DNA of 64,000 bases, from NCBI RefSeq assembly GCF_026914185.1, contig NC_070565.1, forward strand, positions 5,270,001 through 5,334,000, given 5' to 3'. Source of the stretch: Puccinia triticina. Taxonomy: Eukaryota; Basidiomycota; Pucciniomycetes; Pucciniales; Pucciniaceae. The notes under the pieces were generated by a model. The model ran no database searches. It worked only from the letters and a program-made list of their open reading frames with translations, and was not told the origin of the DNA. The first letter of the stretch is position 1. Every line of letters begins with the position of its first letter. The translations under genes were made by a program, and so were the position numbers. Shown one piece after another: positions 4,314 through 44,311 of the stretch.

Positions 4314-4587
4314 AGGGAGTCCCCAACGTGATAGGATAATCTTGTTTGATCGACAACGGATAATCAATTTCAACCATATAACCAGAAATACATCGTCTAC
4401 GGATCTCAACTTCGAGCGGAAAAAGGAATCAAATTCATCAACAAATCTATCAAACTCAACGGCATATTCAGTTATTCTGTTGAACGACTAGTCGACTTTT
4501 AGGAACATCCAAAGGACCGATTACGAACCTCTGAAAAGAAAACTTAACCATCCGAACTGAAAAGAGTATCTCGAAGGAAGCAGCCAG

Positions 4588-4735
4588 TTATAAAACCTCA
4601 AGAAGGGCAAGAGTAAGACCTGAAGAATTTGGATAACTAGGATCCTGTTAGAAGAGAACTCCGGAATTGTTTGAAGAAAACAGCTGTTTATAAAACCTTA
4701 AGAAGGGCAAGTGTAAGACCTGAAGAATTTGGATA
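4588..4735 (+). repeat. Two 48-bp direct repeats in the retrotransposon leader
   Basis: 4588-4635 and 4688-4735 share TTATAAAACCT(C/T)AAGAAGGGCAAG(A/T)GTAAGACCTG... with only a few mismatches, 100 bp apart, between the 5' LTR and gag. Their place in the leader would suit an RNA packaging or regulatory function, but that is inference. Confidence 0.7.
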
Positions 4736-4920
4736 GGCAGAGACTGTTTGAAGAACAATCTCAGAACGGTAAAGTTATTTATATCAATTATTAAAAGAAA
4801 ACCCCCAATTTGCCCTGGTAAAGAGACCAGAGACCAGATATTATTGTTTCTTTTTCAGAGCACAGTAACAGGTAGCAGCAGATATTCATATTACAAAACC
4901 AGGAATCAACACGAACCGGC

Positions 4921-6973
4921 ATGAGTTTACCGTTCAGTCTACCAGATATGGAGAGCGGATTTGCTCCCTCCACCCCGTTTAGAAACAGAACATTGACAGG
5001 AACTTCGGGACTGAATTGGAATTCGGAATCTACAAATCCACCTCCACCACCTAGGAAAGACAAGGGAAAGGGACCAGAGAATCAATTCAGAGAGCAGACT
5101 GAAGAGGACTTATCAGACTCAGATGAAACTCAACCAGAACAAAATACTTCACGAGAAACAATAACACAGTATGGGATCCACAACACTGAAAACATCCAAC
5201 AACCTAGGTTTCAGCCTCAATATCAACGACAACAACAACCAGAAACCCATCAACAAATACCTTATCAACAACCAATTTCATTATTACCAACCTCAGCATG
5301 CCTATCAACAATCAAATTACCCACCAGGATTTATTGATGATGATGAACTATTCTATGATGGAAATCAATTCTTCACCTTCTTACGGAAATACGAACAGGC
5401 AGCAGATTGGTTTGGTTCAACAAAATTTCAAAGAGCCCTTCAGATTGGACAATTCATACGGTCAGAAAAACTCCGTTGTGAACTCGAGGATATGGACGGA
5501 TACGAAGGATGCGACTGGGATACCCTGCGAACTGAAATGATTGAAACCTGGGGTGCATGGGGTGATGAAATGATGTACACCATTGATGATCTTTTTGAGC
5601 TGGCGGAACAACAAGCTCAACAAGGAATTATAAACTATCAGCCTTACAGAAGATATCTTGAAAAATTCACCACAATCCTCAAGTATTTGGTCAAGAACAA
5701 ACACATCAACAAAGAAGACGACCCCGGATTATTATTCTTAAGCGCCTTCTCAACTGGAATTCAACAAAGCATTAAGCGTACTCTAGTCAGCAAAGATCAG
5801 CTTCCAAAATCTAAAGATGGAAATAATAAGGCTCCACTATGGGAACATCTGGTTGACGCTGCGGAAACGGAAATGCGACGGATAGAAGAAGGCTACGAGG
5901 AAGAAAACATCCGGGCTTGGGAACTGGCTTCACTGAAACATAGACTGGAAATAACTTCAACCAGTACCTGCAAATATCCAAAACCATCCAACCAACTAGA
6001 GTTTCCAGAAGGTCCAATAACAGAAAATACGGAACCAGAAATTGATTGTGCGGAACTGCAAATGGATTGTGTGGATGCTGTGATGGATTTTATGGAACCT
6101 GTTGTGGAAGTCACGGAAATGGATTTGAAAAATCACTCTCAGGAATCAGTTCCCAAAACAACAGCTTTAACAATCCAGTTAACAAACCAGAAACCATCAA
6201 TGGCATACTTCATGGATACTGTAATGGAGCTTAAACACACTGTCATTGAGATACTAGAATTTGACTCCAACGGTGTGAATACGGCTATCAGCGTGAATCA
6301 GGAAGAAATCTTGGATCAATCTTTTCAGCAAATCAAAACCTTCAATCATCAGCCACATCAACTCAACAACAACTATAAGTCAAAAATTGAAGATTCCCGT
6401 CTTACAGAAACAACTCAGCAAGCTCCACAATTTCCATGCTCCCCTGAAATCAGTTGGATTGAACATATTTACAAAATTCAAAGCAAGATTTTCAACAAGC
6501 ACCTTTTCAAACCTCACTTGGATCAACATGAAGAATCCTTTAACAAACCCTTACCTCAAGACCCAGGAACCGCAGATATGGCCCCTGAAGCAAAGGAAGA
6601 CAACACAATCATTCTATGCAACCCAGATAATCATCCTACCAATCTCAAGCCAACAAACTCACAAATTTCAGTCAATCTTAATCCCCTTTGTCCACCTGCT
6701 GAAGAAATATTCAAGACTCTGCCGGCCCCAGTTCTGCCGGATATCACCTCAAAACCAACTTTTTCAAGGAATAAATCAAAACCAAAACAAGGATTGGACA
6801 GATACATTAACAAAAAGCTATCTCAACTTCAATCAAATAAGAATCAATCTCTTCATCTATTTTACTTACTCAAGAAACTCATTTTTCAACCAACTCTCAA
6901 GATTCCGCCGGACCGCTTTGGAAAACTCCAGGAAGCATTCAACCACCCAAGGCTCCTTGTTGGAATTGGTTGA
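4921..6973 (+). pseudogene. Retrotransposon gag, frameshifted near its N-terminus
   Basis: An ATG at 4921 opens a proline/glutamine-rich N-terminus (PPPPPRKDKGKGPENQF). Around 5275-5285 the coding frame changes: the first frame ends at 5337, while the frame continuing to the stop at 6973 carries the capsid-like part. That part contains FLRKYEQAADWFG, LRCELEDMDGYEGCDWD and ETWGAW, the helical pattern of Ty3/gypsy retrotransposon gag proteins, followed by a long low-complexity tail. I see no CCHC zinc knuckle. A single-base shift (about +1) would join the two parts; whether it is a mutation or programmed slippage cannot be told from one copy. The total length without the shift would be about 680 residues. 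Confidence 0.75.
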
Positions 6974-25888: not shown

Positions 25889-28756
25889 GTGGGCTTGCTT
25901 GGTTGATGGGCACTGAAAATCCGGTCACAATGTATTTGGATCATTCTAACCTTTTGTATTTTAAGACTGCTAAGTATTTATCTCCAAAGCAGGCTTTGTG
26001 GGCTCTGTTTTTGGATGACTTTAATCTGCTTATATATCACATTCATGGTTGCAGAAATCCTGCGGACGGCCCGAGCCGCCGGGACGACTTCTGCGAAGGG
26101 AGGATTGTAACGGGCGACACAAGTTTGATTACTAAGCGCATGGTTTGGTGTGATGCTATGAGTAATGGGACGGCAGGGTCGCCACTCACGTCTCGTGACC
26201 TATTTTTCCAGCGGCCTACGTCGAGCTTGTCTTACTTTGAGTGGTTTTATACTCCTAGAGAATTGGCTAACAGGGTCATTACGTTAACTGACGGTATCTA
26301 TTGGCATAATAACGGGGTGGGTGAATTTTACAAAGTGTTTTTTACAAGGTACAAGGCCCTGTAAAAAATTTCTTTGTAAAAGTAAACTTCAAGGGGGGGT
26401 ATGTGTAATTTTACAATGTGTTGGCTAGATTCCCACCTTGTAATGTAAAAGCAACCCTGTAAAATTATACCTGAAGTCTTCCATGTGGAATTTTACTTGG
26501 TGTTTTTTTCACAAATTGCCACCTTGTAAAAAAAATACCTTGCAAAATTGCATATTTGCAGCAAAAACCTGAATTTTACAAAGCAAATTTTGAGGAAGCA
26601 GTACACCATGCAAAATATATGTTGTAAAAATCAATAAAAATGACTCCCAGGTTCAAATTTACAAGGTGTTGTGGAAATCTTACAGGGTGTTTATACTCCT
26701 TTTTCATTTGGAAAATTGACTTCCCCCAACTGCACATTGTCCAATATGCACTCCTGCTGAAATTATTGAAGGTGCAGTAGCAATAAGAGAATTCAATCCA
26801 CTGGCAAAAACTTTGACCAAGGGTTATATGGTGATTCATGACTCCCAGAAACTTCATAATTCCAGCCGAAGTTCATAATTTCCAAGTGCAGTTGGTAGTA
26901 GTGGGTTTTCCAAAAAAAAAACAAGTCAAAACTGGCTTGTAAATTTCACACAGCAACTTTTAAATTTGAGCTTGGTAACCACTTTTATTGATTTTTACAA
27001 GGTAGATTTTGTGCAGCGTACCAAAAACACCTTGTAAAATTTACACAACACCTTGTAATTTCAAACCTGGTTGGCATTGTTATTGATTTTTACAAGGTAT
27101 GTTTTGCATGGTGTACTGCTTCCTCAACATTTGCTTTGTAAAATTCAGGTTTTTGCTGCAAATATGCAATTTTGCAAGGTACTTTTTTTACAAGGTGGCA
27201 ATTTGTAAAAAAACATCAAGTAAAATTCCACATGGAAGACTTCAGGTATAATTTTACAAGGTTGCTTTTACATTACAAGTTTGGAATCTAGCCAACACAT
27301 TGTAAAATTACACATACCCTCCCTTAACGTGTACTTTTACAAAGAAATTTTTTACAGGGCCTTGTACCTTGTAAAATTCAATATCCCCCATAATAACAGG
27401 GTTTTTGTTCCCCATTCTTTGCAGACTAGGATTTTGGCCATGTATCATGACTCGCCGGCGGTGGGACACCCTGGCATTGCAAGGACTTTATCCACTCTGA
27501 CAAGGAACTTTTCTTGGCCGGGGGTACGATCGGCAGTTATCAAATATGTTACGAGTTGTGACTCATGCCAGCGAGTTAAGGCGAGGTGTAGAGCACCGGA
27601 TGGTAAATTGGTTTCTACAGTGGCGAATCCGAAGCCTTGGAGTGTGATAGGGATGGACATGATTGTTAAGCTTCCTTTGTCCGGTGGTTTTGATTCAATA
27701 TTGGTGGTGGTGGACTTGCTCATTAAATTGACCCACTTTATTCCATGTAAGGAAGCCTTGTCTTTGGCCATTCTGGCGGGCTTATTTAAAAAGTATATTT
27801 TCCTTTTGCATGGTGATCTTCCTGATAAAATTGTGTCTGATAGAGGTAGTACCTTTGCTAGCAAATTTTGGAAGGAATTGATGAAAACTCTCAGCATTAG
27901 ATTGGCGCTTTCCACCGCTTATCACCCGCAGACAGATGGACAGACGGAGCGGATGAACCTGGTTGTTGAAGATTATATTTGTCATTTGTGTTCTTATTAT
28001 CAAGATAACTGGGACAAGTTTTTAGACATGGCAGAGTTCTCAATAAATAATACTGATTTGGCGAGTTTAAAAATTTATCCTTTCTTCTTTTCTTACAGTT
28101 TTCATCCCCGTTTTAACATTATGACTGAGAATACCGGCCGGGAAGGATTAGAAATTTTTTTGGTGTATTTGCAAATAACACAGGAGACTGCGATTGAGTG
28201 CTTGCAACAAGCGCAGATAAAGCAGGCAGAATATTACAATAAGGGTAAGAGAGATGCGCCGGTATACTTACAGGGAGAGATGGTTTTGTTGCTAAGAAAA
28301 TTTATTCAGTCCTGAAGAATTAATTCTAAACTGGATTACAGATATATTGGTCCGTTTAAGGTAGTGAAAATGATAGGCCCTAACGCGGTAGAATTGGATC
28401 TAGCTTCCAATTATCCAAAACTCCACCCTGTGTTTAATGTATCACTGCTAACACAATATGTTTCCCCCACTTCTGTTGAAGGTTGGTTATCAAACTTAGG
28501 TATTAAAGAGAGGTATCATACCAATGATCAAATTGTTGACTGGGCGCGCATCAAGTTGGTTCTGGATGTCAGGAGCGCTTCCAAAGGTAAATTTGATTAT
28601 TTAATTGTGTGGCATAATTCTATGCCAGGGGAGGACACATGGGTTTCTCAAAATCATATCCCAGTGTCGGCTAACAAATTCTTAGAAGATTTCTGGCGAT
28701 TGTTGGAGTTGAAAAAAAAGAAGACTAACAAGAAGAATAAAGGTAACAATTCTTGA
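25889..28756 (+). pseudogene. Ty3/gypsy chromovirus pol fragment (RNase H end, integrase, chromodomain)
   Basis: The frame starts inside RNase H (MYLDHSNLLYF). A zinc-binding HHCC follows after the MITE (HPGIARTLSTLTRNFSWPG, CDSCQR), then the integrase core with MDMIVKLPL, IVSDRGSTF and TDGQTERMN (DDE), and a chromodomain-like C-terminus (KFDYLIVWHNSMPGEDTWV). It is broken by a 1,075-bp MULE-type insertion at 26314-27388 and an in-frame TGA at 28313-28315; RT, protease and gag are missing upstream, where a copia LTR abuts. It is a dead fragment. Confidence 0.92.
26314..27388. mobile_element. 1,075-bp MULE-type MITE with long inverted repeats, TSD CATAATAAC
   Basis: Ends GGGGTGGGTGAATTTTAC and, as complement on the right, GGGGGATATTGAATTTTAC begin inverted repeats of more than 300 bp rich in TTTTACAAGG motifs. 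The 9-bp repeat CATAATAAC flanks it (26305-26313, 27389-27397). It splits the gypsy pol so that the downstream frame resumes at HNNRVFVPHSL. It has no transposase. Its ends match the termini of the 14.8-kb MULE at 29332-44142. Confidence 0.92.
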
Positions 28757-29321
28757 GAGTAGTAGGCAAGGCTTATTTTGTAACAAACACTTTGAAGATT
28801 ATGGGTTTAATTATTAGATGCTTACCTGATTATGGTTTTATCCTTAGTCTGACTAACAGGATGATCGGCGGAAGTATCTCTTTATTATCCTTGATTGATT
28901 TCGATTGTGCATGATTGATGATGTATCCTTAAATTAATTCTTGACGTCATCAGAGTGTTTCGCGATTCCTGTCTTTGTGTTACTCTCTCTCTCTGAAGAA
29001 CTTTGTTCCCTCTTTCCTCTCTTCTTCATCGGAATATTTCTTTATCTATCATTTCCTCAGAAATCAAGATCCATTATCAACTATCAACATAACTTTATTA
29101 CATAATTGAGTTATCCTATTAAGCTTCTATTGCACATTGCATAGAACTTAAATCTTGTTACTATCCAAGCAACCGGCGAGTTATCCTCTTGGATTTAACT
29201 TCATAGCCCATATATAGTGAATTGGGTAGTAGCCTGATCCTCACAATATTGAGATGAATTCACCATAGTTTCAGGAATTATGTCCAGATTGGCACTCCAG
29301 AGCCTCCATACATGCATTATA
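28757..29321. other. 3' flank of the gypsy fragment; no gene
   Basis: AT-rich DNA that may include the gypsy 3' LTR, but without a second copy no LTR ends can be set. A CT-microsatellite lies near 28984-29000. Confidence 0.4.
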
Positions 29322-29331
29322 TACATACAAT

Positions 29332-29590
29332 GGGGGTATTGAATTTTACAAGGTGTGTTTTACAAGGTACAAGGCCTTGTAACCAAACCCCTTGTAAATT
29401 TACACATAAGGGTAGCAAAGTGTAATTTTACAAGCTGGTTCCCAAATTCTTGTCCTTGTGAAGAACCCCTTTCAAATCATGCCTTTCAAAAAAACACGAC
29501 AGCCCTCAGATGTGGAGTTTCACAAGGCTAGAACTTACAAGGTCCAACATTGTAAATGAAATACCTTGTCAAATTCAGTATGACCAGTAT
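29332..29590 (+). repeat. Left terminal inverted repeat of the MULE
   Basis: TTTTACAAGG-rich; matches the complement of about 43890-44142 and the arms of the MITE at 26314-27388. The inner limit is approximate. Confidence 0.78.
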
Positions 29591-30609
29591 GAATGTTGAA
29601 ATTTACAAGGCATGTCTCCCGGAGCCAAAAGTCATTGCAAATGTCACTTGGAAAACTGCATCTCAGTGGCCATATCCCACTTTCTTAAATCCACAGAATT
29701 CTAGACCTGTAGATCTAAGTTTTGGGGTGTTTTTTTTCTCACAAAATGGGGCAAAAAATGCCCCTTTATCTCACTTGGCACGTTGAATATCCCCAAAGGC
29801 CCGAAGGCCCTATGGATGACCCTCCAGCTGTGCCAGAGCAACGAGCAAAAGAGGGCCGGTTGGTAAGCTAGCCAGGGAGGGCCTAACCAAGCAGTTAGGG
29901 GCCTCCCAGGGAGGGGGCGGACAAAACCGAATCCCCTGCGGATCAATCCATCCATCACCTACTCCTTATATACTCACTTGACCTTACTCACCACCCGCCA
30001 CCTCACACCACCGCCACGCCACACTTCTCTCACGATACCGCCCCAATTGCCCAACCACGCCCACGCCACACCTTGCTCTATGTTACCGTCACCGCCCCGG
30101 TGGCTCCTGACCCAGCCCAGTCTTGATTATGTACTCCATTGGGCTGGTTGCACCTGGTTGCGCCAAACTCATCATTTCGCTCCTCTGATGCTACCAACAC
30201 CGCCAAGGCGACAACACCACCAGCTTCACTTCATGCCAGGGTGGTCGTTCAACCCAACACCTACATACTTTACCGAGGCAAAGCCCTGAGGATGTCCAGC
30301 CAAAACCAACCCAGTAAGGCTAAATCCTGAGACACAGCCTCAATGACCCAACAACCCAACGCGCTCCGCTCTTCTGGCATGTTGAAACTAATTAAAAAAA
30401 ACCTACTGTTTCTTTCCTCAGGCTGCTCTTCTTACCCCTCGGAGCTGATCTTGGGGATGTGCCCCGGCCCCGGCTGCTACTGAGTGCCAGCTCGATGGGC
30501 GAGCCAATCATCAAAGTGCGCGCACATGTATATATCTCTGTCGTGGTTTGGGGAGCTTGTATGAGGTGCATACCCACACTTATTGTTTACGCAGAACCTC
30601 CAAGCTACG
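29591..30609. other. MULE interior upstream of PEX11; no gene recognised
   Basis: 29790-29960 is GC-rich, 29980-30110 is made of CACC-rich short repeats. This should include the PEX11 promoter if the gene is expressed. A possible extra first exon for PEX11 could start at the ATG near 30497 and splice to the acceptor before 30595 (TTTACGCAG), but this is unproven. Confidence 0.4.
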
Positions 30610-31617
30610 ATGGACCATCTGGTCCGGCTGCTCTCGACTACCTCCGAGGCCGATAAGTCGTTCATGCTCGTCCAGTATTTGGCTATCATCCTCCGAACAC
30701 TCGCCACTCGCTCGAACAGCGGCTCGTCCAACAAGGCCCTTGTGCTCCGCCTGGCTGCCCTGAGTAAACTCTTATCCGACGCACGAACAACGTTGAGCTT
30801 CTTACTTTTTCGGATCACGTTTGGCATATTCAAAGCTGACTTGTGGGATTTTGGTGGTATGATTTCGTGAAATTCGTGGTCCTTGGGCAAGATTAGTTAT
30901 TGACTGTGGGATTTGATCTCAATCGTCCAGTGGCTCCGCTCGCTAAATGCTTTACCACCATCAGGCTCGAAGCCAGTGCAAATCGAGCGACTACAAGTGA
31001 TCTCGATGCTAATATACTACCCAGTTGCGTACAGAAGTGTCTTAGTTGGTAGAGAATTGATGGATGGACATAAAACTGACAAGAGACCGATCGGGATGAA
31101 AAAAATTGTTTTGCCCAGGATGAACATCTATACTTCCTGGCCTCCAAGGGTGTCCTGCCGCTCTCGCCCCGACTGATCAACAAGGCGGCATTGTACTCCT
31201 GTCGGGCCTGGGCGGCCTACACGCTCCTGCACTTCTTCCACCTTAGGGAGGAACTCAAGCTGCTGGAGCCCGAGCGGCGCCGACTTCAGGCCCTCCAGGC
31301 TGGCACCGATTTCGACACCCCTCGCAAGCCCAGTCCGGCCGTCGCCGCTTCTCCCCAGGAGATGGAGGGCCGCAGGGCCGCTCTCATCAATGGCTTAATC
31401 GTCAACCTTGCTTACACGCCCCTCACCCTCCACTGGTGCGTCCCCTCCCCTCACATGTGCAAATTCACTTTCTACAGCTCATCTTCTTTTACGTTATTAA
31501 CCTAGGTCCATGCCAAAAGGTCTGTATGGCTCCGAACTGATCACCGGAATCTGGGGCCTCGTGGCTGCGGTCGCGCAACTGAGAGCAGGCTGGAAAGCAT
31601 CCGCTGTCACTCGCTAA
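30610..31617 (+). CDS. PEX11: PEX11-family peroxisome biogenesis protein, multi-exon, possibly degraded
   Basis: PEX11 proteins shape and divide the peroxisome membrane. Here the first exon from the ATG at 30610 encodes HLVRLLSTTSEADKSFMLVQ and LSDARTTL, the N-terminal PEX11 signature. Then follow LWDLISIVQWLRSL and IERLQVISMLIYYP (about 30904-31023), EHLYFLASKGVLPLSP through LTLHW (31119-31435), and MPKGLYGSELITGIWGL to the TAA at 31615-31617 (31506-31617). The last intron (31436-31505) has good GT-AG ends. The second (31024-31118) starts GTTGCG. Between about 30799 and 30903 no GT-AG pair joins the frames, and a TGA lies just before LWDLIS, so this copy may be damaged. Joined length is about 246 residues, normal for the family. 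It lies within the inverted ends of the MULE. Confidence 0.82.
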
Positions 31618-32425
31618 TTCTATCTAAAATTATGCATTGTACACTCTTCCACACAAATTAACCTAGATGTATATTTTTTCCAATACAAAAACAAACTGCA
31701 GAAAAAAAATCAAATTTGCAGTCTAATTTACCCTGTTGATGAATTTTTTTTCAGGGGTGGAATACAAACAAAGTTTCTGGTGCATGGTCTTGTAAAAATC
31801 TGGGAGATAATATGTCAAAAAATATGGTGTTCAAAGTTGGTTTGCATGATTTTATGCATGCATAAATCATAAAATCATAAAAATATTTTGGTGAGGAAAT
31901 TTTGTATTACATAATCAGACAGTCATATCCCCTGCAAAAAAAGATTTTATGATTTTATGATTTATGCATGCATAAAATTATGCAAACCAACTTTGAACAC
32001 CATAAATATGGGATATATCTACTATTCTGGGCTACATTCATCATCAAACTTGACTACACCCAAGTTTACTTGCCTGATGTGGACTTCACCACATGTGAAG
32101 ATCTGCAGAATGTTTTTGTCAAAATAATGCTTTGTAGATAAATTGTGCCAATTTTAAAGTGGTAGACACATCATTTGGGTTGGATCTACAACTTGGCCAA
32201 CAGGACAGAAAGCATATTGCCACCAGTACTTTGGGAATTAGAATGAACATAAGTGAGGTGTGATGCTGAAAGGTTGATTGTGACATTTTGAAGGAGGGAT
32301 CAAGGAAGTTGGAAAAATGGGACCAGGTATCTGCAGCGGCGAAGCCGCCTTGGCCTCTAGTATACTTTATTACAAGGTACTTCAGTCTATTTACAAGGTG
32401 TTTTTTTTTTTTTGCGCTATATTAA
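31618..32425. other. Spacer between PEX11 and the Harbinger element
   Basis: AT-rich DNA with no gene. It contains the 178-bp MITE at 31825-32002 and, near 32370-32400, TTTACAAGGT motifs like those in the MULE ends. Confidence 0.45.
31825..32002. mobile_element. 178-bp Tc1/mariner-type MITE, TSD TA
   Basis: The inverted repeats of about 60 bp begin TGGTGTTCAAAGTTGGTTTG and nearly meet in the middle. TA flanks both sides (31823-31824, 32003-32004). There is no coding sequence. Confidence 0.85.
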
Positions 32426-32650
32426 GGCCCCGTTTGGCTGCCACGTTATACGTCATAAATGGACAAATTTATGACGCGCGACCCCAGGGGGTTATAACGG
32501 TATCCCAAATATGTGTTTGGCAGGGTCGTCATAAGCTCCGGCTTATAACTTGAGATATATCACGATCAAAATTGTATATCCGCCTTGCCTCACGGTCACC
32601 GCTCAGCTTACGGTCAACGCTCAGCTTCAATCACATCAACAACTTTCGCC

Positions 32651-34069
32651 ATGGCTTGGCGAAGAGGAAAAGGAAAGAATTCCCAACAACCTTCTGCTAC
32701 TCCTAGTCGATTGCACCCAAAACATTCTTGTTGTCAAGCATCTGGGACACCAGGAAGACAACCAAGCTCCCAAATATCACCAGCCACTCCACACAAGACT
32801 CAAAGCACCATCCACTATTCATGGAGTCCGAGTCCACCGCGACGTTGTGAGAATTCGAGCCCACCGCCTCCTGATTGTTTGGACTCCCCGCGTGCTGAGA
32901 AGAGCCCACCGCCTCCTGATCGTTCGGACTCCCCGCGTGCTGAGAAGAGCCCACCACCTCCTGATCGTTCGGACTCCCCACGTGCTGAGAAGAGCCCACC
33001 GCCTCCTGATCGTTCAGACTCCCCGCGTGCTGAGAAGAGCCCACCACCTCGAGAAGCTCGCCAGATCGAAAAGCTCCCACCTAATCAACCTGAAGGTGAC
33101 AAATCACAAACACAGACTCAAAGAAAGAACCTCGTTTGGTCCCCAGCAATGGAAAAGAGTGCTCTCGACTTGTATGTGAAAGCCGTCAAGGAGGGTAAAC
33201 GTTGTGATAATGGTTTCAAGACCGAAACCCACCAATGGGCAGCTGCTGAGCTCGGAAAGGAGTTCCCTGAGTATGATTTTACTGGTCAAAAGGTTAAATC
33301 TAAGTTGAACCAAGTATGTACTACTGATCATTCACCTTCTATTCATTGTTGTACCCGTACTGACTCTTTTCTTTGGGGCTGACTGATTTCTTTTGGAAAG
33401 ACATTCAAGAAATGGTATGATGCCTTTCTTGCATGTAAAGAGGCGAGTGGTTTTGGGTGGAATGAAGAACAGTGTATGGTCACTGCATCCAAGGATGTCT
33501 GGAATGCCTTCTTGGTAGTAAGTCATTTGGATTTTTTGATCATCCATTGTTTTGTTTGTTGGCTGATTAAGAATACATAGTCCCATCCATTGGCTAAGCG
33601 TTTCAAAAACACACCTTTCCCAGAATATCACGAGCTATGTGTTATTTTTAGTGGGAATGCCGCAACAGGAAGGTTGCGTCGGGGCACTAACGCCGACGTT
33701 CACGAGGACAATCCCGACGCAGCGAATGGGACTCTACCTCGAACGGGCACTCAGCAGCGTGGTGTGCGTCCCCATCGCTCGCACCGCAGGACCTCTGGTG
33801 ATGCCTTCGAATCATCAATTCAATCCGTAGTTGAGGCTTTTCTTGCTCAAGATAACAACAGACCTGAGGATACTCCAACCCACAGGGCCATCACAAAGTT
33901 CAAAGACAAATTTGCTGCTGGTCTTGAAATGGATGATCTAGTTGCCGGCTACAGTGTTTTGGAGAACGAGGCCAAGGCTATCACCTTCTTAGCTATCCGA
34001 GACAGCCACCGCTGTTCAGCCTGGTTGCATGCTCAGATCCAGAAACGACGCGAACGTGACAACATGTAA
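32651..34069 (+). CDS. Harbinger Myb/SANT-like DNA-binding protein
   Basis: Three exons with clean GT-AG borders: 32651-33313, 33401-33514 and 33581-34069. The ATG at 32651 sits in a good context (GCCATGG). Exon 1 has a low-complexity part with four 15-residue repeats (SPPPPDRSDSPRAEK), then a Myb/SANT-like domain (WSPAMEKSALDLYVKAVKEG ... FTGQKVKSKLNQ), completed by FKKWYDAFLACKEASGFGW in exon 2. Exon 3 has a basic linker and a helical C-terminus ending QKRRERDNM. In Harbinger systems such a protein binds the element ends and helps the transposase into the nucleus. No stops were found, so this gene, unlike its partner, looks intact. Confidence 0.85.
32858..33037 (+). repeat. Four 45-bp tandem repeats in the Myb-like gene
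   Basis: Units at 32858, 32903, 32948 and 32993, each encoding SPPPPDRSDSPRAEK or a close variant, in frame. The first unit is the most diverged. Confidence 0.93.
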
Positions 34070-34175
34070 TTCCACTCGCTCGTATTTGATCAATCTCCAC
34101 TCGCTCGACAAGTCGATTGATCTCCACTCGCTCGACAAGTCAATCGATCTCCACTCGCTTGTGAACTCAATCAAT
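34063..34175 (+). repeat. Tandem CTCCACTCGCTCGACAAGTC repeats downstream of the Myb-like gene
   Basis: About four degenerate units of 27 bp (TCCACTCGCTCG core) directly after the stop codon at 34069. Confidence 0.8.
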
Positions 34176-34324
34176 CAAAATCTTGCTCCTCATCAAAGTC
34201 AATCTCGCCGGGCCTTGTGTACTCTCAATCAGAACCTCGGATACTCAACAGACCCTCACATAAGACCCATGTACTCTGATCAAACCCTTGTATTATTTGT
34301 TTGAAAAGAAGTAACTACAATATT

Positions 34325-35621
34325 CTATGTGCGAGATGCTAAGTAACTACAGTATTGATTCCACATGTCCTGAGCAATCCGATCTCTCCAGGAATTGTTT
34401 GCTGCTCGTTCGCGAGCCCGACTTAGTGGAACCTCTTCCTCATCGTCTTTGTCTGGTGGAGGGTCGTCCTCACCAGTTGGTGCGCGCTCATTTGCATCCA
34501 GTCTAAATTCTACGCCATACCCTCGATCATTGATGATGATGTTGTGTATTACCGCTAACGCAATTACAAGGTCCCTCTGAGTCTTGAGACTGTACTCCAA
34601 AGGATGAACAAGTATAGGGAAGCGTTTCTTCCAGGTCCCAAATGTCCGCTCGACAACATTTCGCATCATCGAATGTCAAAGGTTATAAAGTTCTTCCTTT
34701 GTTTCAGGTCTGAAAACAAATGAATTACAAGCATGTTAGTCATGACTTGTCCATCTCCTTACACGCAGGGTTATACTCACCTCATCCCTGCTTGAGCATT
34801 CTCGCGCAAATGATATCGCACCCCGCGGTATGGAACTAGTGTCCCCCTTGAAAGAGAGTACCCTGCATCGGCGAGATAGAAAGAACGCAAGGGGATCTTA
34901 AAGTCCTCGGCCAAAGCACTTCCGAGGACTTTTGAGTCATGAGCCGATCCCTCCCAACCGACCATCAGATAGGTGAATTTCATGTCGAAGTCGACCACGC
35001 CAAGGACATTCTGAGCTAGACAACCCTTCCGGTTTCGATATGGGCCCGCTAGATGTTCGGGTACGCAGGCGGGAATGTGGCAGCCGTCTAGTGCGCCGAT
35101 ACACCCATCAAAGAATGGTGAAAACTTTGGGTTGTCCAAGATGACTTCGTGCATGAATTTCGGATCAGGGGTGACAATATACTTTGATTTAAGCTGAAGG
35201 AGGAGTCAAATGATATGATGAAACACCCGCAATATCGTTTCTCCACTATGCTGAAACCGATCCTGTGCTTGACGGTTGGTCGCATTCTGCCCAACAATGT
35301 ACAGGAATATGCCGAGTTGTTCGTCCATGCTGAGCATTCTGGAAACAGGCTCACAGTCAATTGAATCCAGCTCAACTGAGCAACCTTTGAAGGTATCAAT
35401 AGACAACCAGAGCATGGCTTGAGCCCGTCGGGCATTCCCACCAAGGATGTGTTTGATGTATGCGGCTCCGCCAAATATGGCATCGTTGTACGGCTCCCTG
35501 TGGTGCAATCTTGACCATTGACGGAGACCGATGTAAGACTCAAAAGTGTTCCTGAGAACCTTTTGCTGAATGGAGAAGGGGATGATGGAGGTGCAAACTC
35601 TGCCCTTCTATACTATCAGAT

Positions 35622-35653
<32 letters not shown>

Positions 35654-36560
35654 TTAATGAAGTGATAGGGTTGGTTGGTTCAAGATGAGCTTGTTGATGA
35701 CACTGAATAAATTGTTGTTATTGTTAATGTAAGGGTTGTTATGTAGGTTGTTTAAGTATATATATAAGGCTGAACTGTAAATGTTGGGGTGACTGTGATT
35801 GGTGAGTAATGAACTGAGGAGCTGACAACTGGGGAGGAGGGAGCTCCTTATATAGACAAAAGTGGAGCCCCAGAGGGCTTGTGGGTTAGGGTTTTGACTA
35901 ATCTAGACAACAGTGTGAGGGATTTTAGCTGGTGGGAGTAGATACAAATGATGTCATAATGTGTCAGGGGTACATAAATGATGTCATAAGAATGCAGTAG
36001 GGCCACATGAAGGCTGCGTAAAGTGACAGTAGACTGCATGAGTTGACAGGTGGATGCAGGGGGTGCATAAATGAAGTCTGAGGCTGCAGAGTCAGTGTGT
36101 GATGACATCATAATATGGAAATAGAAGAGTACTTGATAATATGTAATGACTGCAGTCTGATGGGGAGATGTATGTTTGTATCCTGTGATTTGTATAAGCA
36201 TAATGCTGTGATCCTTGAATTGAGGCTGGTGACAGGCTGGTGACTGGGTATGTTGAACGTGTGATGGGTGTCCAGTGTCCAAAGAAGTGTAGGTTCCAAT
36301 CCAGCGGGGTTCAGGTGATGCTTTCAGTGGTGACTAGGGGTAAAATTGGCCGTAGAATCCATTTCTGAGGTCTGTTTGATGGTATCTTGAGGCGTATTGT
36401 GAGTAAATATATGTATGCGAAAAAACTTTTGATTTTTCACTTTTCCGTCTACCACACCGATGATGGAAACAAGGAAGAGAAGGAACCGACGCTTTCGTTT
36501 CATCGGCTCTTGCTGTCGAAGTCGGGCCATCTGATTGTTTTCAGTTGATTCAATGTCCAT
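34325..36560 (-). pseudogene. Harbinger DDE transposase (HARBI1/DDE_Tnp_4), split by a solo LTR and two stops
   Basis: It starts at the ATG at 36560. The N-terminal exon reaches the LTR at 36457 and resumes at 35531 in the same frame. Catalytic motifs are all present: GALDGCHIPACVPE (first D), FYLADAGYSL (second D), RNVVERTFGTWKKRFPIL (E). There is a GT-AG intron at 34710-34780, and the stop is near 34325. Besides the 925-bp LTR there are in-frame TGA codons at 35206-35208 (after FHHII) and 34676-34678 (in NL-stop-HS, where the family has NLRHS). The protein cannot be made from this copy. Confidence 0.93.
35532..36456 (-). mobile_element. Solo LTR (copy D) inside the Harbinger transposase
   Basis: 925 bp, inverse orientation, flanked by CCGA (35528-35531, 36457-36460). 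Its 144-codon ORF translation is identical to that of copies B and C. It lies within coding sequence; taking it out restores the transposase frame. Confidence 0.95.
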
Positions 36561-37689
36561 TTTGGTGATGATACTGGTTGTTATTGGTATGTATCAATAG
36601 TTGTGTTGGAGGGTCCACTAGTTTATGATGTGCCGCACCAAACAGCTGATTCAGCTGATTGTTATAAATAGGGGAGGTGTAATAAATAAAATTTCCGATG
36701 AAAATTAGGGGACTCGCAATTTATAACGGGGGGCCCATTTATGCCGTATAACGCGGCAGCCAAACGGGGCCTAAATCTTTTATTATTTTTTTGAACATTT
36801 GTGTTATCTCTTTTGTAGGTTAATATTCAAAGCAAGAAAAAATTAAAAGGAGCTGTGTAAAATCAAATCGCAGCACAAGTAAAGTCAAGGAAGGAAAGAA
36901 AAAAAAAGAAAAAAAACTATACCAAACTCTTGGTAATTGTTTGACTGCTACGTCTAGTACTAGTCTGACTGGTTGGGATCACTGAGCGACTTGCATTCGC
37001 TGGGGCTGTTGCTGACTTCTTCGGGCGGCCCCTCTTCTTCGGCAAGACTTCGGGAGCTGCTGGTACCGTCGGTACCTTGGGTTGATCCGGAGAGGGCTCT
37101 GGTTGATCGGGAGCGGGTCTGAGCTTCAAAGTAAGCTTCATGACACCAGGTCGGGGCTTTGATGTTGATGACCCATTGCTATCGAGTGTTGATGGTGCCT
37201 GCGGAGAGCTTTCTTTGAGACGGGCAGGAGGTTGCTGCGATAGGCTTGCTCTGTTCTTCAGTTGGCTTCCTATGAGAGGTTGGGGCTTCGCCGATGTTGG
37301 TTTGACTACTTTTGTTGGACAAAACTTCTTCCGAGGGGGTTCGCTATCTTTTGAAACAATTTTGACTGTTTCAACTTTGGTTGGGTTTGAATTGGGTGGC
37401 CGATCATTTGTTGGGCAGATTTTACTCTGAGAGGGCTTTTTGGGAGGCAGATTGTGAAGAGTGTCCGTTATCTTGACAGGGGAATCGGGCCTGAATGATG
37501 GAAGAGGTGATGGAAGCTTGGAAGACATGTCGGACCGAGCACGCTCATCCTGCGACGAAGCCGAGCTTGTGCAGCTTGAATGGTTGGCGCGTGACTCGTC
37601 CGACTCTGAATCATCTTTATTGCTGCTGCTTTCATCCTTGCTTTGGCTTTCATCCTTGCTTGAATTTCCTTGTTGGTTGCTACTTGAAT

Positions 37690-40181
37690 CACCAGGGGGG
37701 AAAGTGTGGCACTCCCTGGAGAGTGCCAGACCGTATGTTCCTTTGGGAAGACTGTCTGATGTCAAATGTGTGAGCATGTGGGATTTAGGCTTCAAATATG
37801 TTGACCTTATGTTCAACTCATGCTGATCTTTGATCCACTCCATGGTGAACATGTTGGTAATTGAGGTGAGGGTACCCCCACTTGATGCCTGGTACACCCT
37901 GGTATTCTACACTTAGTGGTGTGTTTCATGAATCAATTTGAGACCCCCTCCACTCAATGAATGGGTTGTAAAGTCATTGAGTGGAGATTCCCTCCACTTG
38001 ATGACTGTTGGACAACCATTGATTGGAGGTTGTGTCCACTCAATGACCATATCTAAATTACCAGCCACCAAGTGGAGACATCCTCCACTCAATGACTGGT
38101 TTTTAATGTCATTGAGTGGAGGGATTCTCCACTCAAGGACTGGTGTGTATACTGGCTGTTGAGTGGGGGGGGTTCCTTACTCGGTGACTGGTTCTACTGG
38201 CCATTGAGTGGAGACACCCTCCACTTGATCACAGTTCACTAGGCTGGGAAAATCCCAGAGCAGTGACCAGTACTGCATGTTGGTCATTGAGCCGGGCCTC
38301 TCCCAGCTTTAAGGAATGTATGTACTGTACTCAGCGCGGGGAAAGTCCCAGCTTGATGGACAGTATGTACTGTCCATCCTGCTGCACTTTTCCAAGCTGA
38401 GTGGCCAGTGTAGGCTGCCTACCGCGCTTGGAAAGGCTGACTAGATGACCAGCATTTGCTGGTCATTGGGCCAGGGCTTCTCGCTGGATGACCAGTATCT
38501 ACTGGTCATCGGATTTGAGCTCGGAGAGGCTGCAGATTGATGACCAGGGCATGATGCCTGTCAAGCGCGGCCTCTCTGAACTCGATGACCAGTTTGTGTT
38601 GGCCATCCAGTCGAAGAAGCCCTGGTCCGATGACCAGCACCTATTGGTCATTGTTCTGGGCCTGTCTGAGCTTGGTGAGCAGTCTGTACTGTCCACCAAC
38701 CTCGGAAAAGCCAAGCTGAATGAACAGTATTTAGTGTACTGTTCATTGAGTTGGGGCTTTCCCAGCTCAATGACCAGCAAACAAAGGTCATCAAGCCCGT
38801 GTAAACAAGCAACTCGCCAATGTCCACCCTGATGTTTGGCCGAACATGACGGTGGACATATGTAGCAACAAAAAAAAACACGCTCCCCGGGGACACCCGG
38901 GGATACAGAGCTGATCCCTGTTGCCCCACTGCCACCGTAGTTCACTTGTGCCCAGATTGAAACTCCTGGAACACAAGCTTTTTTGGTGATTTGCAACACA
39001 TATGAACACCATTTTTGCCACTACAAAATGATGATGATTTTGATTGTTCTGGATACAGCAGGTCAAAAGAGCATCATTCTTATCTTACACCTGGTGCTAA
39101 TAATTACCATGTGATAAGAGCAATCAACCCCATTTTGTTGCACAATGGCCACGGACATAATGGTAGGTGTGATGAAGGTATGTTACCTGGAGGAAAAAAT
39201 CACCCAAAACAGTCAGGCAAAAGGTGTGAAGATGATCAATCTACAAGACAAACGGTATGACCCTGCATGCTGAGATGTGTGTGGACATTTCAGAGTTGAC
39301 TTTTCACCTCAGAGTTCAGACCAGCTATTGAAATCTTTCTCCTGCTGGTTCCAGGATCATCAAAATATTGATGCATCTATTGATATCCACCAATCTGCCC
39401 CCTTCCCTCTTGAAGCTTAATAATTTTAACCTCTAGCTGCTGCATTTTATCAGGCAGATGGAGGTCAAGTGAAGGAAAATTGTGCAATGTGTATTCACAT
39501 ACAAAAGGTGCATGGACCCAAATGAACAGCTGACCGCATGGCAAACTTTAGCCTGCATAAGTGGACCATCACTTGGTAAACATGGTTGGTGAAAAGGCCT
39601 CTTTGATTGTTCACATTTCATATTACAGGGAGGGAAGACAGGTTACAGAGGTTTTCCCAGCTTTGACACTGTGTGATACTCAAAAAAGAGAAATTTAATT
39701 TTACATAACTTTCCTTCCAATTGATGAAGGGAACAGGCATGGCAGAAATATCCCACAAGGATTAATCTACCAGTTAGCTGAGTCTTTGTGGTTGCTATAA
39801 TTTACAGCTATTTTTCATTATGTGATTTTATGTGGGTTTTGATTGAAAAAAATCAGCCCTGAAAAATCTTCCTTCTCACTTGGTCAAGGATATCTTTGAG
39901 CATCAGGATAGTTACATTCTTGGCAAAACATGTTGTGAATTGAAGCTCACATCCTGGATTTTGTTTGATATGAACCAAACAGAAAACTTCAACTAAGATA
40001 TTTCCATGTGTTGGAATTGAGTTACAGATCATCCCGCAACCACTTCACCTACAGTTACACATCTGTTGGGAAAAAAATTGAACAAAGAGTTGCGACTCAC
40101 ATCTAACTCACATCAGACCATTTGACTGACAGAATTACGGCCTGGCACTCTCCAGAGAGTGCCACACTTTTCCCCCTGGTG
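37690..40181. mobile_element. 2.5-kb non-autonomous CACTA-type element, TSD AAT, in the MULE transposase
   Basis: The inverted ends are CACCAGGGGGGAAAGTGTGG and CACCAGGGGGAAAAGTGTGG, followed by GCACTC(C/T)CTGGAGAGTGCCAG. AAT flanks both sides (37687-37689, 40182-40184). A 3-bp target and CAC...GTG ends fit CACTA/EnSpm. It has no transposase. Removing it with one AAT restores one continuous coding frame in the host gene. Its interior has a large hairpin array (37918-38790). Its right part is shared with 23720-24222. Confidence 0.9.
37918..38790. repeat. Array of alternating imperfect palindromes
   Basis: About a dozen units of 60-75 bp. Each combines one palindrome around GATGACCAG-N-CTGGTCAT (e.g. 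GACCAGTATCTACTGGTC near 38489) and another around GAGTGGAG-N-CTCCACTC or CTGGGAAA-TCCCAG. The left units keep the GAGTGGAG type, the right ones the CTGGGA/CTCGGA type. Such dense inverted repeats are expected to form hairpins; subterminal repeats are known in CACTA elements as transposase binding sites. Confidence 0.8.
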
Positions 40182-43100
40182 AATGCCCGCCGCTCAGGTC
40201 AGCTACTTCGTTCATTTCAGGAAGAGTACCAAGCTGGATACCGCCGCTTTTAGTAGTGCCGTCGGTTCCAGTACCAACGTTGAACAGCTTCTGATAACCA
40301 AGGAAAGGTAGCCTTCCTCTGGCATTGGGATGGTCTCGAGTGATATTGCTGATGCTTTTGGTGACAAATTCTTCCTCGATCGGCGTCCAAGTCCTTGAAT
40401 ACATCAGCCAACTGGTCATCGGAGCTTTACCACTTATGCTAGCTGCATCTGGGTTGACCAGCCGAGCAATTCCGTTGTTCTGCATGTCATTGTGAAGCCA
40501 AATCCCGGTGGTTCCTGCTCGCCCAGTCCTGAGAACCTTGCACCAGTAGTGCTTTCTGCCGTAAAACCCACGCGAGAACAAAGTGTAGCTGGCCCCATGC
40601 AAATTGAGCTTGAAAGGCCAATTAGTCAATGCAAGAAACTCCTGCTTCTCGCGACCATCAGGCAAAGTTGTAACATCAACAAAAAAATACAGGTGCAGAG
40701 GGGCTTCTCCGTTCTTGAACACCAGCCGCGAAGTTTCATCCATTATGTGGTGGAGCTCATTAGATTCATATACTCTGGCAATCGATGGTTCATCTTCATC
40801 GGATTCATTGGCTATGCGCTTCTTTGACTTCTTATTCTTCCGGAGTTTTTTGGGTTTTGGCTGGGTCTTGGTTGAATTCGGTCCAAGTATTGGGCATTTA
40901 CAGGTCAAGCCCGACTTGCCGGCGAGTCCTGTTGTAGTCCAAAGATTCATGAGTTTCTCGATGTCATAATCAGGTATGTTGTTGGTCATAAACATGGGCT
41001 TGCGGATGTTGATCACTGATATGCTTTGACTCTGATTTCTGACTTGTGGATCAATTGTGTTGCGGTCATTGAGCTCGCAGTTGAACGTTCGATCTTCTTG
41101 GAGTTCAAACAAGCCCTTCAAAGCCTTCGCCGAGTTCCTTTGGGGGTCCAACGCAATCTCCAAGAAGTAGTCGCACGAGGCATATTCGCCCGGCACAAAA
41201 TTGGCCCCGAGTCTCTTGTTTGCAACCATGAATAGTTTGGTCTGACCGTTCGTAAGAGTTGACCGGAGCCGTCCTTTTTCCGTTAGATTGTGAGTCGCCC
41301 AAGCATTGAAGTGCCTGACGAGATTTTCAAAGAGGCTTTGGCCTTTACCTTTGCAATTGCGGAGCCATAGCGGTGAGTACAGAGCAAAGAGTGACTCCAA
41401 TGCCGCCGCTAACCAACATCGGTTCTTGAGGTGATCAACTTGAGAGGCACTGTATGATTGATAGGTGGTGTACTCGTCGCGATATACATTAGGTGACTTC
41501 TTTGGTCGTCCGCCGGTATTTTTGGTCTTCTTGTCACCCAGGAGCGTATCAGTTGTATCCGGTGGTCGACCATCATTCTCAAACTTCCGCTTCCTAGGCT
41601 TGACCCAGCCCATTGATTGGGATACGTCCGCCTGCATTTTCGTCTGAGACCCATACTTGACCGGAACGCCTCGCATAACCGCCTTGTAATCATCTTCTAA
41701 GTAAGACATGAAGGAGTGGAGCTCGATCATCCCAAGAAGGATGCACTTTTTACCCTCACTGAACATTTGAAGCAAAGAGCATTCGGTGAGGATACTGGGC
41801 ACAGACACAGAAAATTACACAGCAATCACTGACCTGATTGAGTAGTACAATCGATGCATACTTTCAATGGCGTTTGTGGTCTCTGGAAGTGGTTTAGTGT
41901 TGTCCTCCGGCGAATCTTCCTCCAGTGGGCGGCGAGATGGGAAAAGCATTGCCTTGATGTCCGACATGGCCCACCAATCTAACCACCGTCTAGCTTTCGG
42001 AAACAATCGCCGTAGCTGATCCATCTGTTCATCATGAGTTGGTCCGTCATCCTTCGCTTCTTCAGTTAGTTCAAGACATCTTCGTTGAAACTCGGACTAT
42101 ATTAAAATAAAATCAGCATGCTTCAGAGACCAGTACTTCCATCACGAGCATCATGGGCAAGAGACTCACCTCTTGATCGGATGAGATAATCGACCGGTTC
42201 CTGCGCACACAAGTAACCTGAGCTCTGAAGTGCTGACGGCATCCTTTCAAAGCCAGGACAGTATTCTGCTCATCAGTCGATCCAAACGCTTCCATATAGG
42301 CGGATACAAACCCATCTCGCTGGGCCTTTGAAAAATCGACTACCTGGCGAGCCAGTATGGCTCGATCGCGGGGGGTATCCAGCCCCTTGACTATCTGTTG
42401 CAGTAAAACCAAGAAGTGGTTGTGGTAGAAGTTTGTCAAAAGTCCTTGAATCCACGATAGAAGTACTGGTATCCATTGTCCAAGCTCCACGCAGAACATC
42501 AAGGTTGTGAGCAAGTATCCATTCTCAAAGAACCGGTACGTGACATCTGATATCAGACCCCCTTGATAGACTTCATTGCACTCATCTCGGGCAAGGATTT
42601 GGCTCGCCATCCATTTTGACTGGAATGAGAAGTATTCGTTGTCTTCAAGATACGAACATGCAACAATTGCCAGACCTCGCCTAGAATTTCAAATTTAATA
42701 CAACCATTAGCCCCAATAGATGATATAAATGAAATTGAAGCATTAAACCAAGAAGAAACACCCACCGGCCCAACTGAAACAGATCAAGGAATACCTTGTC
42801 CCCAACGCCTCCACCCAGCTTATCTGGGGCAATGTTAAGTTCGCGCAAGATGTTTCTTTGGAGATAACGCAGTCAATCGGCATTCACCAGGCTTGGATGA
42901 ATGGTGGTGACACTAGATTCTGTACGGTCAAGAGCCTGTGCGTCACCAATCTGGGAGTAAAAACGGTATGAATTTGATGGAATTGAAGACAAGTTGCAAA
43001 AGATAAATTGCACATACTTTGAGCTTCAAAGCACCGACCGTTGGGTTATTCTTGATCGTTGTTTTGAGCTTATCCTTTGAAAGCTTATCGGGTTTCTTGG

Positions 43101-43889
43101 CTTCTGGCCACGGATGATTTTGGAATCCACGGTGAAGAATTACTGCCCAACCAGTCTCAACGTGTTTGTCTACTCAACATGCGGTCCCGGAGGGTCCCTT
43201 TGGACATTCCAACCATTTCACTTTGCCGGGGCATCGGCCGGCCGATCCAGGGCACTTCGGATTCCTGTGAAATAAAGAGTGCTTCAGATGGCAGAACAAC
43301 CCTTAGGCTTGAGCAGCAATTTGGAGAGACTTACGATTGAAGATACTTCCTAATAGCTCCAGGGGCAGTAAGAGGTGATCCAGCCCATTTACATTCATCT
43401 TGGTCACAGACCATAGCACCAAGGCAGTAGAACCGAAGAACTTTCCAACGTTCATTGGTACATCGTTTGGTACCGGATGTTCTGGTATAGCCAACCGTCC
43501 CAAAGTTTGTGATATTCATATCAGGTGTCTTCAAAAATGTTGTTTGGCGGTTGGGGTATATTGGATAGCCTTGCGAATCAAGAATGCAATCATGGTCTAT
43601 GTATGTCTCAACAGAAGAAAAATTATCAGGGAATTGCCATTTCGCGAATTCCGTGGGTGTGCTGGAATGGTTGTTGTTGTCCTCATTATCCGAGGAGCCT
43701 GTGTCTTCTGAATCTCCCATAGCTTGCAAAATGATGGGTCTCGGAGAAGATGGCAGATTGACTGGTGTGAGAATCCGTGCTTATGTTTCCTCCTTGTGGG
43801 TCCCACATTGTAAATCTATGAATGTGGTGCTTGCTCATGCATATTTGCATTGTGCATATATGCATTTACATGGTTAAGCATGTGATCCA

Positions 43890-44142
43890 TTGTAAAATTG
43901 AATATGGGATAGTGTATTTACAGTTTTGCATAGTGACTCGTGCCACCTTGTAAACAAGGTGGTGCAAATTTGCTTGCTGCTGCGGAGAGGTATCATATTA
44001 CAAGGACTTTTTTACATAGTGTTTTGTCACAAGGAGGAAAATAAACCCAAACCCTTGTAAAATTACACTTTGCTACCCTTATGTGTAATTTTACAAGGGG
44101 TTATTTTGCAAGGCCTTGCACCTTGTAAAATTAACCCACCCC
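43890..44142 (-). repeat. Right terminal inverted repeat of the MULE
   Basis: Complement of the left end at 29332-29590, including the shared TTTGCTACCCTTATGTGTAA stretch and repeated CTTGTAAAA motifs. The outer terminus is ...CCCACCCC, followed by TACATACAAT. Confidence 0.78.
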
Positions 44143-44311
44143 TACATACAATACTGACCAATACTGATCCCACTTGTTTGCCGGATGCTGGAAGCGGAAG
44201 CAAGGAAAGATGGCTATAAGACAAAACATGAAACATGACTGAACAGAACTTCTGGTTCAGAGCCATTTTTGTCTAGGAATGTTGGCTCAGGAACCATGTT
44301 TGGCTAGGAAT

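Follow-up and report, generated by a model that had tools for sequence, protein, structure and literature searches.

A Transposon Nest in Puccinia triticina Holding a PEX11 Gene Probably Captured and Spread by a Helitron

The window analyzed here is a 64,000-nt stretch of the Puccinia triticina genome (bases 5270001–5334000 of contig 8, C8; the genome comprises 122.8 Mb in 18 contigs), and its positions 29332–44142 lie between matching inverted ends that enclose, among other genes, a copy of the peroxisome gene PEX11. Judged from sequence comparisons, this segment is most probably (we put the probability at roughly 0.94) a transposon nest and not one gene-carrying Mutator-like element (MULE), and PEX11 would have been captured and spread by a Helitron before nested insertion brought it to this position. 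A single transposon insertion with a 10-bp target site duplication (TSD) spans 29332–44142, and the original element was ∼5 kb long and MULE-like. Three elements have inserted in it, each at a clean site: a Helitron, a PIF/Harbinger-type element, and one that is CACTA-like. Two of the three are flanked by 3-bp TSDs, and the Helitron has in turn received a small miniature inverted-repeat transposable element (MITE). All comparisons between copies reported here are between paralogs inside this one genome.

The Outer Element and Its Sister Copies

The outer element is framed by terminal inverted repeats (TIRs) ∼110 bp long, delimited by comparison of the two arms and, on the left, also from sister copies (left, 29332–29440, + strand; right, 44050–44142, − strand). 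The ungapped 77-nt arms at 29358–29434 and 44054–44130 are 92% complementary, with a local score of 125 against a maximum of 28 among 300 shuffles. When 295 pairs of stretches were drawn at random from the window, the highest scores were 121 and 118, followed by 34. The 10-bp sequence TACATACAAT lies immediately outside both ends, at 29322–29331 and 44143–44152, and apart from these exact flanks it is absent from the window on both strands. An initial annotation of this stretch had reported both the matching inverted ends and the direct repeat outside them, and each is borne out by these measurements.

Two sister copies of the outer element, both without PEX11, provide the reference against which its contents can be read. 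The first (L009; C16:3428834–3434092) has 5.26 kb between its ends and the 9-bp TSD ATAAAAGAA, while the second (L011; C13:2137141–2140943) spans 3.8 kb and has a 9-bp TSD with one mismatch. By BLAST, the 344-bp left end of the outer element has 98% and 96% identity in the two copies. Aligned to L009, the window element resolves into one sister core that is cut at 29674/32361, ∼32425/36772, and 37689/40182. Four core pieces are left: 29332–29674 and 32361–32425 (neither assigned a strand, both aligned to L009 and L011); 36775–37689 (− strand), the C-terminal part of a coding region, which aligns to L009, to L011 until 37565, and to open reading frames (ORFs) of locus L034; and 40185–44142 (− strand), a transposase-like gene read right to left, defined from its coding pieces and the L034 ORFs. 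A third locus, C18:3223099–3225448 (within L013), retains right-end core pieces and a terminal match. L011 also lacks the middle of the core, and carries an insert of its own of ∼1 kb at its positions 4402–5442.

At the position of the Helitron, both sisters read GGCCATATATA without interruption (GGCCATA/TATA, the slash marking the insertion point). The site of insert 2, the PIF/Harbinger-type element, is likewise uninterrupted in both, and that of insert 3, the CACTA-like element, is uninterrupted in L009, the corresponding part of the core being absent from L011. The initial annotation had placed two foreign transposons inside the outer element, and two other transposons do sit there. Helitron sequence was not found by BLAST at L009, L010, L011, L013, or L034.

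Structure and Ends of the PEX11 Helitron

Insert 1 (29675–32360, + strand) is a non-autonomous 2.69-kb Helitron with PEX11 inside it. It starts with TCCCACTTTC and ends with CTAG, is flanked by A and T, and has produced no TSD; the canonical Helitron ends are thus present (5′ TC and 3′ CTRR; TCCCACTTTC...GGCCTCTAG). The 3′ end (32336–32360, + strand) consists of a hairpin, GCGGC-GAA-GCCGC, followed by CTTGGCCTCTAG, such that the GCGGC/GCCGC stem is located 12 nt before the terminus. These ends recur throughout the genome in the same context: the 5′ 18-mer has 183 copies, of which 181 are preceded by A, and the 3′ 25-mer has 284 exact copies, of which 281 are followed by T, with reversed-pattern controls returning 0 in both cases. 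The preceding base was A in 18/18 copies that were read directly (the 6 PEX11 copies and 12 on contig 1). When the exact ends on contigs 1–4 (56 5′ ends and 89 3′ ends) were paired within 8 kb, six same-strand pairs and one opposite-strand pair were found downstream, as compared to one same-strand and two opposite-strand pairs upstream, a result that is suggestive only.

Helitrons make up 2.6% (3.2 Mb) of P. triticina haplotype A according to a survey of rust transposable elements (PMC12210899). HELPO1 of Pleurotus ostreatus is described as a fungal canonical Helitron of the Helitron1 type (PMC4289320), and insert 1 resembles such canonical elements in its TC start, its CTAG end, the hairpin ∼12 nt before that end, TSD-free insertion between A and T, and the presence of captured genes; it differs from them, as they are presented in that account, in that a likely donor of its captured gene is identified within the host's own genome. 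There was no RepHel gene to be seen in the window copy of the Helitron. The genome contains at least 150 matches to Helitron_like_N (PF14214); Helitron enzymes therefore exist in this genome and are a possible source of the activity.

The Helitron also carries the small MITE mentioned above (31825–32002, no strand assigned; ∼180 bp with 67-nt arms, its ends uncertain by a few bases). This MITE is missing from two other copies of the Helitron (L017 and L018).

Probable Capture of PEX11 and Its Likely Donor

The Helitron is a mosaic of a 5′ part, a block matching one contig site, a block matching an apparently intact PEX11 gene together with its introns, and a 3′ part, and it is present in several copies. 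The first block (29930–30485, + strand; Helitron positions 256–811) has 97% identity to C8:339748–340303 (L023). The PEX11 block (30483–31618, + strand; Helitron positions 809–1944) has 96% identity, over 1149 columns with introns included, to C8:4499353–4500501 (L022), and the two blocks overlap by 3 bases at their junction. The latter site supports a four-exon spliced model encoding 251 amino acids, which matches PF05648 over positions 1–222 of 222 (58.7 bits), and it is, on this evidence, an apparently complete host PEX11 gene and the likely donor of the captured block. A PDB search with the donor protein gave no match, and a PEX11 paralog is located on C3. The captured block begins ∼127 bp before the ATG and ends one base after the stop codon, and because introns are included, what was captured was DNA and not a processed transcript. 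Following the predicted donor model, the PEX11-derived coding region in the window occupies 30610–31617 (+ strand; exons 30610–30843, 30931–31023, 31119–31435, and 31506–31617) and is out of frame.

The loss of frame can be traced to intron 1, whose predicted 5′ splice site is abolished by a 13-bp difference between Helitron and donor. This difference is common to 6/6 Helitron copies, which points to a single capture followed by amplification, and under the donor model all six copies encounter a stop soon after exon 1. Private codon changes across the six copies comprise 29 nonsynonymous changes, 1 stop, and 9 synonymous changes, with ∼2.8:1 expected for random change. Given that the six copies lack the predicted splice site and that their private changes are near neutral, the captured PEX11 appears to be a pseudogene passenger.

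Five further copies of the PEX11 Helitron share its 5′ end and have differing flanks. Both ends are present in the copies on C18 and C10, while the copy at C8:6557107–6568313 has been interrupted by two or more later insertions. In the remaining two copies the continuous match runs only as far as Helitron position 2035 (copy on C8) or 1660 (copy on C16), the extent to which they were read. Core pieces 1, 3, and 4 of the outer element had no BLAST match at the five other PEX11-Helitron loci (1.5-kb flanks on both sides included) or at the two source sites, where the sole other matches were 50 bp to insert 2 (in L019) and two to an end of insert 3 (in L023). The PEX11 segment thus has both Helitron ends, along with five copies in other flanks that lack the outer core, which argues that PEX11 traveled by Helitron. 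The window Helitron has 7 private changes over 2035 compared sites, and the window outer core has 7 over 833 sites relative to the two sisters; these counts, which are small, fit insertion of the Helitron into a pre-existing outer element.

Three observations concern the surroundings of these loci. Another 3′ end of the same Helitron family is found ∼200 bp or less upstream of the 5′ end of the C8:6557107–6568313 copy. Positions 2223–2354 of L023 (C8:338248–341803) contain an end related to that of insert 3 (75% identity over 132 columns, and 97% over 39), within 300 bp of the block captured by the Helitron. A partial relic of the PEX11 Helitron (C16:3576161–3577231 and 3578431–3578533) lies ∼1.2 kb from an 83% match to the end of the outer element.

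Together, these features suggest a course of events in which a Helitron would have acquired the complete PEX11 gene along with other genomic DNA during rolling-circle copying. The resulting PEX11 Helitron may have been spread by the enzymes of autonomous Helitrons, and one copy would have landed in the outer element. Each unit of the nest probably moves, or moved, on its own.

Alternative Explanations

Several points weigh against Helitron capture followed by nesting. The A/T rule is broken at 2/183 5′ ends and 3/284 3′ ends, and the 3′ hairpin is short, with a stability no greater than that of shuffled sequences (z of −0.73 and −0.39). The autonomous Helitron that would share the ends of insert 1 is putative. 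The exon model of the donor is our own prediction, backed by Pfam coverage and by no transcript, and the order of events rests on paralogs, as a single genome was used. Finally, when each copy is compared with the donor, the pairwise ratio of nonsynonymous to synonymous differences (pN/pS) comes to 0.28–0.59, below 1. This last value would also be expected if the Helitron PEX11 copies were functional extra genes under selection, raising the dose of PEX11 or giving a truncated peroxisomal protein. Two further points speak for the same view: exon 1 has stayed open and retains its PEX11 match in four copies (window, C18, C10, and C16), and the ∼127 bp upstream sequence was captured as well. Nonetheless, we regard such a function as improbable, given the stop that 6/6 copies reach soon after exon 1 of the predicted model, the near-neutral private changes (30 nonsynonymous or stop versus 9 synonymous), and a stop within exon 1 itself in copy L019. 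Between copies, pairwise pN/pS is 0.70–3.92 (on small numbers), and for this reason the constraint is placed on the donor side: the ratios below 1 between copies and donor probably reflect constraint on the host gene.

The initial annotation had taken everything between the inverted ends, PEX11 included, to travel, or to have traveled, as one unit. The corresponding alternative is that the outer MULE captured PEX11 through a Pack-MULE-like transduplication and carries the gene, its transposase, and its passengers together. In agreement with this proposal, PEX11 does lie inside matched inverted ends that a perfect 10-bp TSD flanks, and MULEs that carry host gene fragments are known (PMC6446971). 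It does not hold against the inner boundaries, and we consider it very unlikely: PEX11 has Helitron boundaries of its own and occurs at five other sites without the outer element, the insertion site is uninterrupted in both sisters that keep the left end, and the gene of the outer element is itself cut by insert 3. Pack-MULE capture of PEX11 by the outer element was rejected accordingly, as the gene sits inside a separately bounded Helitron, and no evidence was found in this one genome for joint movement of the 14.8-kb composite. A native PEX11 gene around which the outer element inserted is ruled out as well, as the sisters show that the flanking core pieces belong to one element. The direction of the transfer might also be reversed, with C8:4499353–4500501 as a later host copy derived from the Helitron and PEX11 brought from elsewhere. 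Only one genome was examined, and the 13-bp difference could represent a gain by the host gene rather than a loss by the Helitron; still, the similarity between the host gene and the Helitron ends at both block edges with no Helitron ends, the host gene retains a full open four-exon model, and the PEX11 block of the Helitron adjoins a second block with a separate match of its own, all of which makes this reversal highly improbable.

The Outer Element’s Gene and the MULE Question

The gene of the outer element is encoded on the − strand of core piece 4 and includes coding pieces at 43331–43780, 42113–42688 (with D-type motifs), and 41815–42096 (with the motif TTNAIES), followed by a frame at 40135–41814 that contains a protease-like conserved region and runs into insert 3. 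The initial annotation had described a MULE-type transposase reading inward from the right end; an inward transposase-like gene is indeed present, and its MULE type is unconfirmed, with no Pfam MULE match. The scanned pieces of this gene had no match to the Pfam MULE family (PF10551) or to any other transposase family, and although the genome has 150 PF10551 matches that were scored (of 186 candidates), none of these falls in the window. Elsewhere in the genome, at C13:5461977–5472644, four PF10551 matches of identical score and with an exact spacing of 3462 bp, ∼30 kb or less from a contig end, represent a MULE transposase gene repeated in tandem.

Relatives of the outer transposase were identified at 12 further loci (L041–L052) among those examined. 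The motifs SDVTY, QVVDF, and GC.QHF are invariant in seven aligned rows, and TTNAIES is mostly retained; by eye, we take these D/D/C-H/E-like motifs to resemble those of MULEs. The TSDs of the outer-element copies measure 10 bp in the window, 9 bp in L009, and 9 bp with one mismatch in L011. According to PMC6446971, MULEs have TSDs of 8–11 bp and long inverted ends. The outer element is similar to MULEs and Pack-MULEs as portrayed there (PMC6446971) in its long inverted ends, its 9–10 bp TSDs, and a transposase-like gene beside one end, and differs in having no Pfam MULE match and in that the cellular gene was not captured by the outer element. It fits a MULE by its TSDs, inverted ends, and motifs, and its membership is unproven because no Pfam transposase match was obtained.

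The transposase pieces are followed, in the same orientation, by a conserved region of ∼470 residues (40135–41814, − strand, in the window; L034:3883–5304 and relatives; five rows). Its features, including NRCW..ALESLFALY, a CxC pair, and HYWCKV...WLHDD, with motifs like Cys and His boxes, resemble those of ubiquitin-specific cysteine proteases. A PDB profile search of this region returned nothing, and Pfam gave only a weak AT-hook match in one row; taken together, the transposase piece and this region yielded no more in Pfam and PDB than weak hits to unrelated families or chains. Single-sequence structure predictions for two window pieces had pLDDT values of 46 and 33, too poor for use. No paper linking a transposon transposase with a ubiquitin carboxyl-terminal hydrolase in rust fungi was found in the open-access literature searched. 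Protease-bearing MULEs occur in plants. A tentative and rather doubtful possibility is that the outer element represents an uncatalogued MULE-like lineage with a Pfam-invisible transposase and a protease-like region, in which case the nested composite could also be mobilized jointly by relatives; if true, fungi would have in this lineage a counterpart of the plant MULEs that bear a protease.

Inserts 2 and 3 and Neighboring Elements

Insert 2 (32426–36771, no strand assigned) is a PIF/Harbinger-type element with the TIR GGCCCCGTTTGGC and the TSD TAA at 32423–32425 and 36772–36774. Its − strand encodes pieces of a DDE_Tnp_4 transposase (PF13359, E = 1.8e-11 and 2.8e-6) within 34325–35205, and its + strand has a Myb/SANT-like match (PF12776, E = 1.2e-4) within 32549–33382 that, at 23.4 bits, is just below the Pfam cut-off of 23.6. 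The assignment follows from the TWA-type 3-bp TSD and the DDE_Tnp_4 transposase. Elements of the PIF/Harbinger group are described as having 3-bp TSDs and a Myb/SANT protein (PMC12730594), and with its TAA duplication, its DDE_Tnp_4 pieces, and a Myb/SANT-like frame whose match stays below the cut-off, insert 2 does not differ notably from that description.

Insert 3 (37690–40181, no strand assigned) is a 2.5-kb CACTA-like element with CAC...GTG inverted ends (CACCAGGGGG) and the TSD AAT, and it interrupts the gene of the outer element. CACTA/EnSpm elements have CAC...GTG ends and a 3-bp TSD, as insert 3 does.

Outside the nest, a separate 1075-bp MITE (26314–27388, no strand assigned) has ends related to those of the outer element and the TSD CATAATAAC, found at 26305 and 27389; the initial annotation had recognized this smaller element and its 9-bp duplication correctly. 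Judged by eye, it apparently lies within a Ty3/Gypsy-like integrase reading frame (window 26000–28760). Self-comparison of 28701–29331 revealed no second copy (e.g., a long terminal repeat) within the window.

Implications for Gene Capture in Fungi

In Pyrenophora tritici-repentis, a histone H3-like gene is reported to have been transduplicated by a hAT element (PMC3538342). There, as here, a DNA transposon has made additional copies of a fungal cellular gene; the hAT element has inverted ends whereas a Helitron is involved here, and the H3-like gene is described as transcribed (PMC3538342) whereas the window PEX11 is out of frame by the predicted model. In the open-access literature searched, and as judged by title and the start of the abstract, no paper was found on PEX11 with a Helitron or on fungal nested Helitron/MULE gene capture; nor was any paper found there on PEX11 in rust fungi.

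Nested transposition and gene capture by a Helitron are clearly a further example of an already known phenomenon. In this instance, a single genome shows the likely donor, the capture junctions, the later copies, and an uninterrupted target site, and the capture and spread can therefore be traced step by step. Before a gene that lies between matched inverted ends is taken for cargo of the outer element, the inner boundaries must be checked against sister copies.

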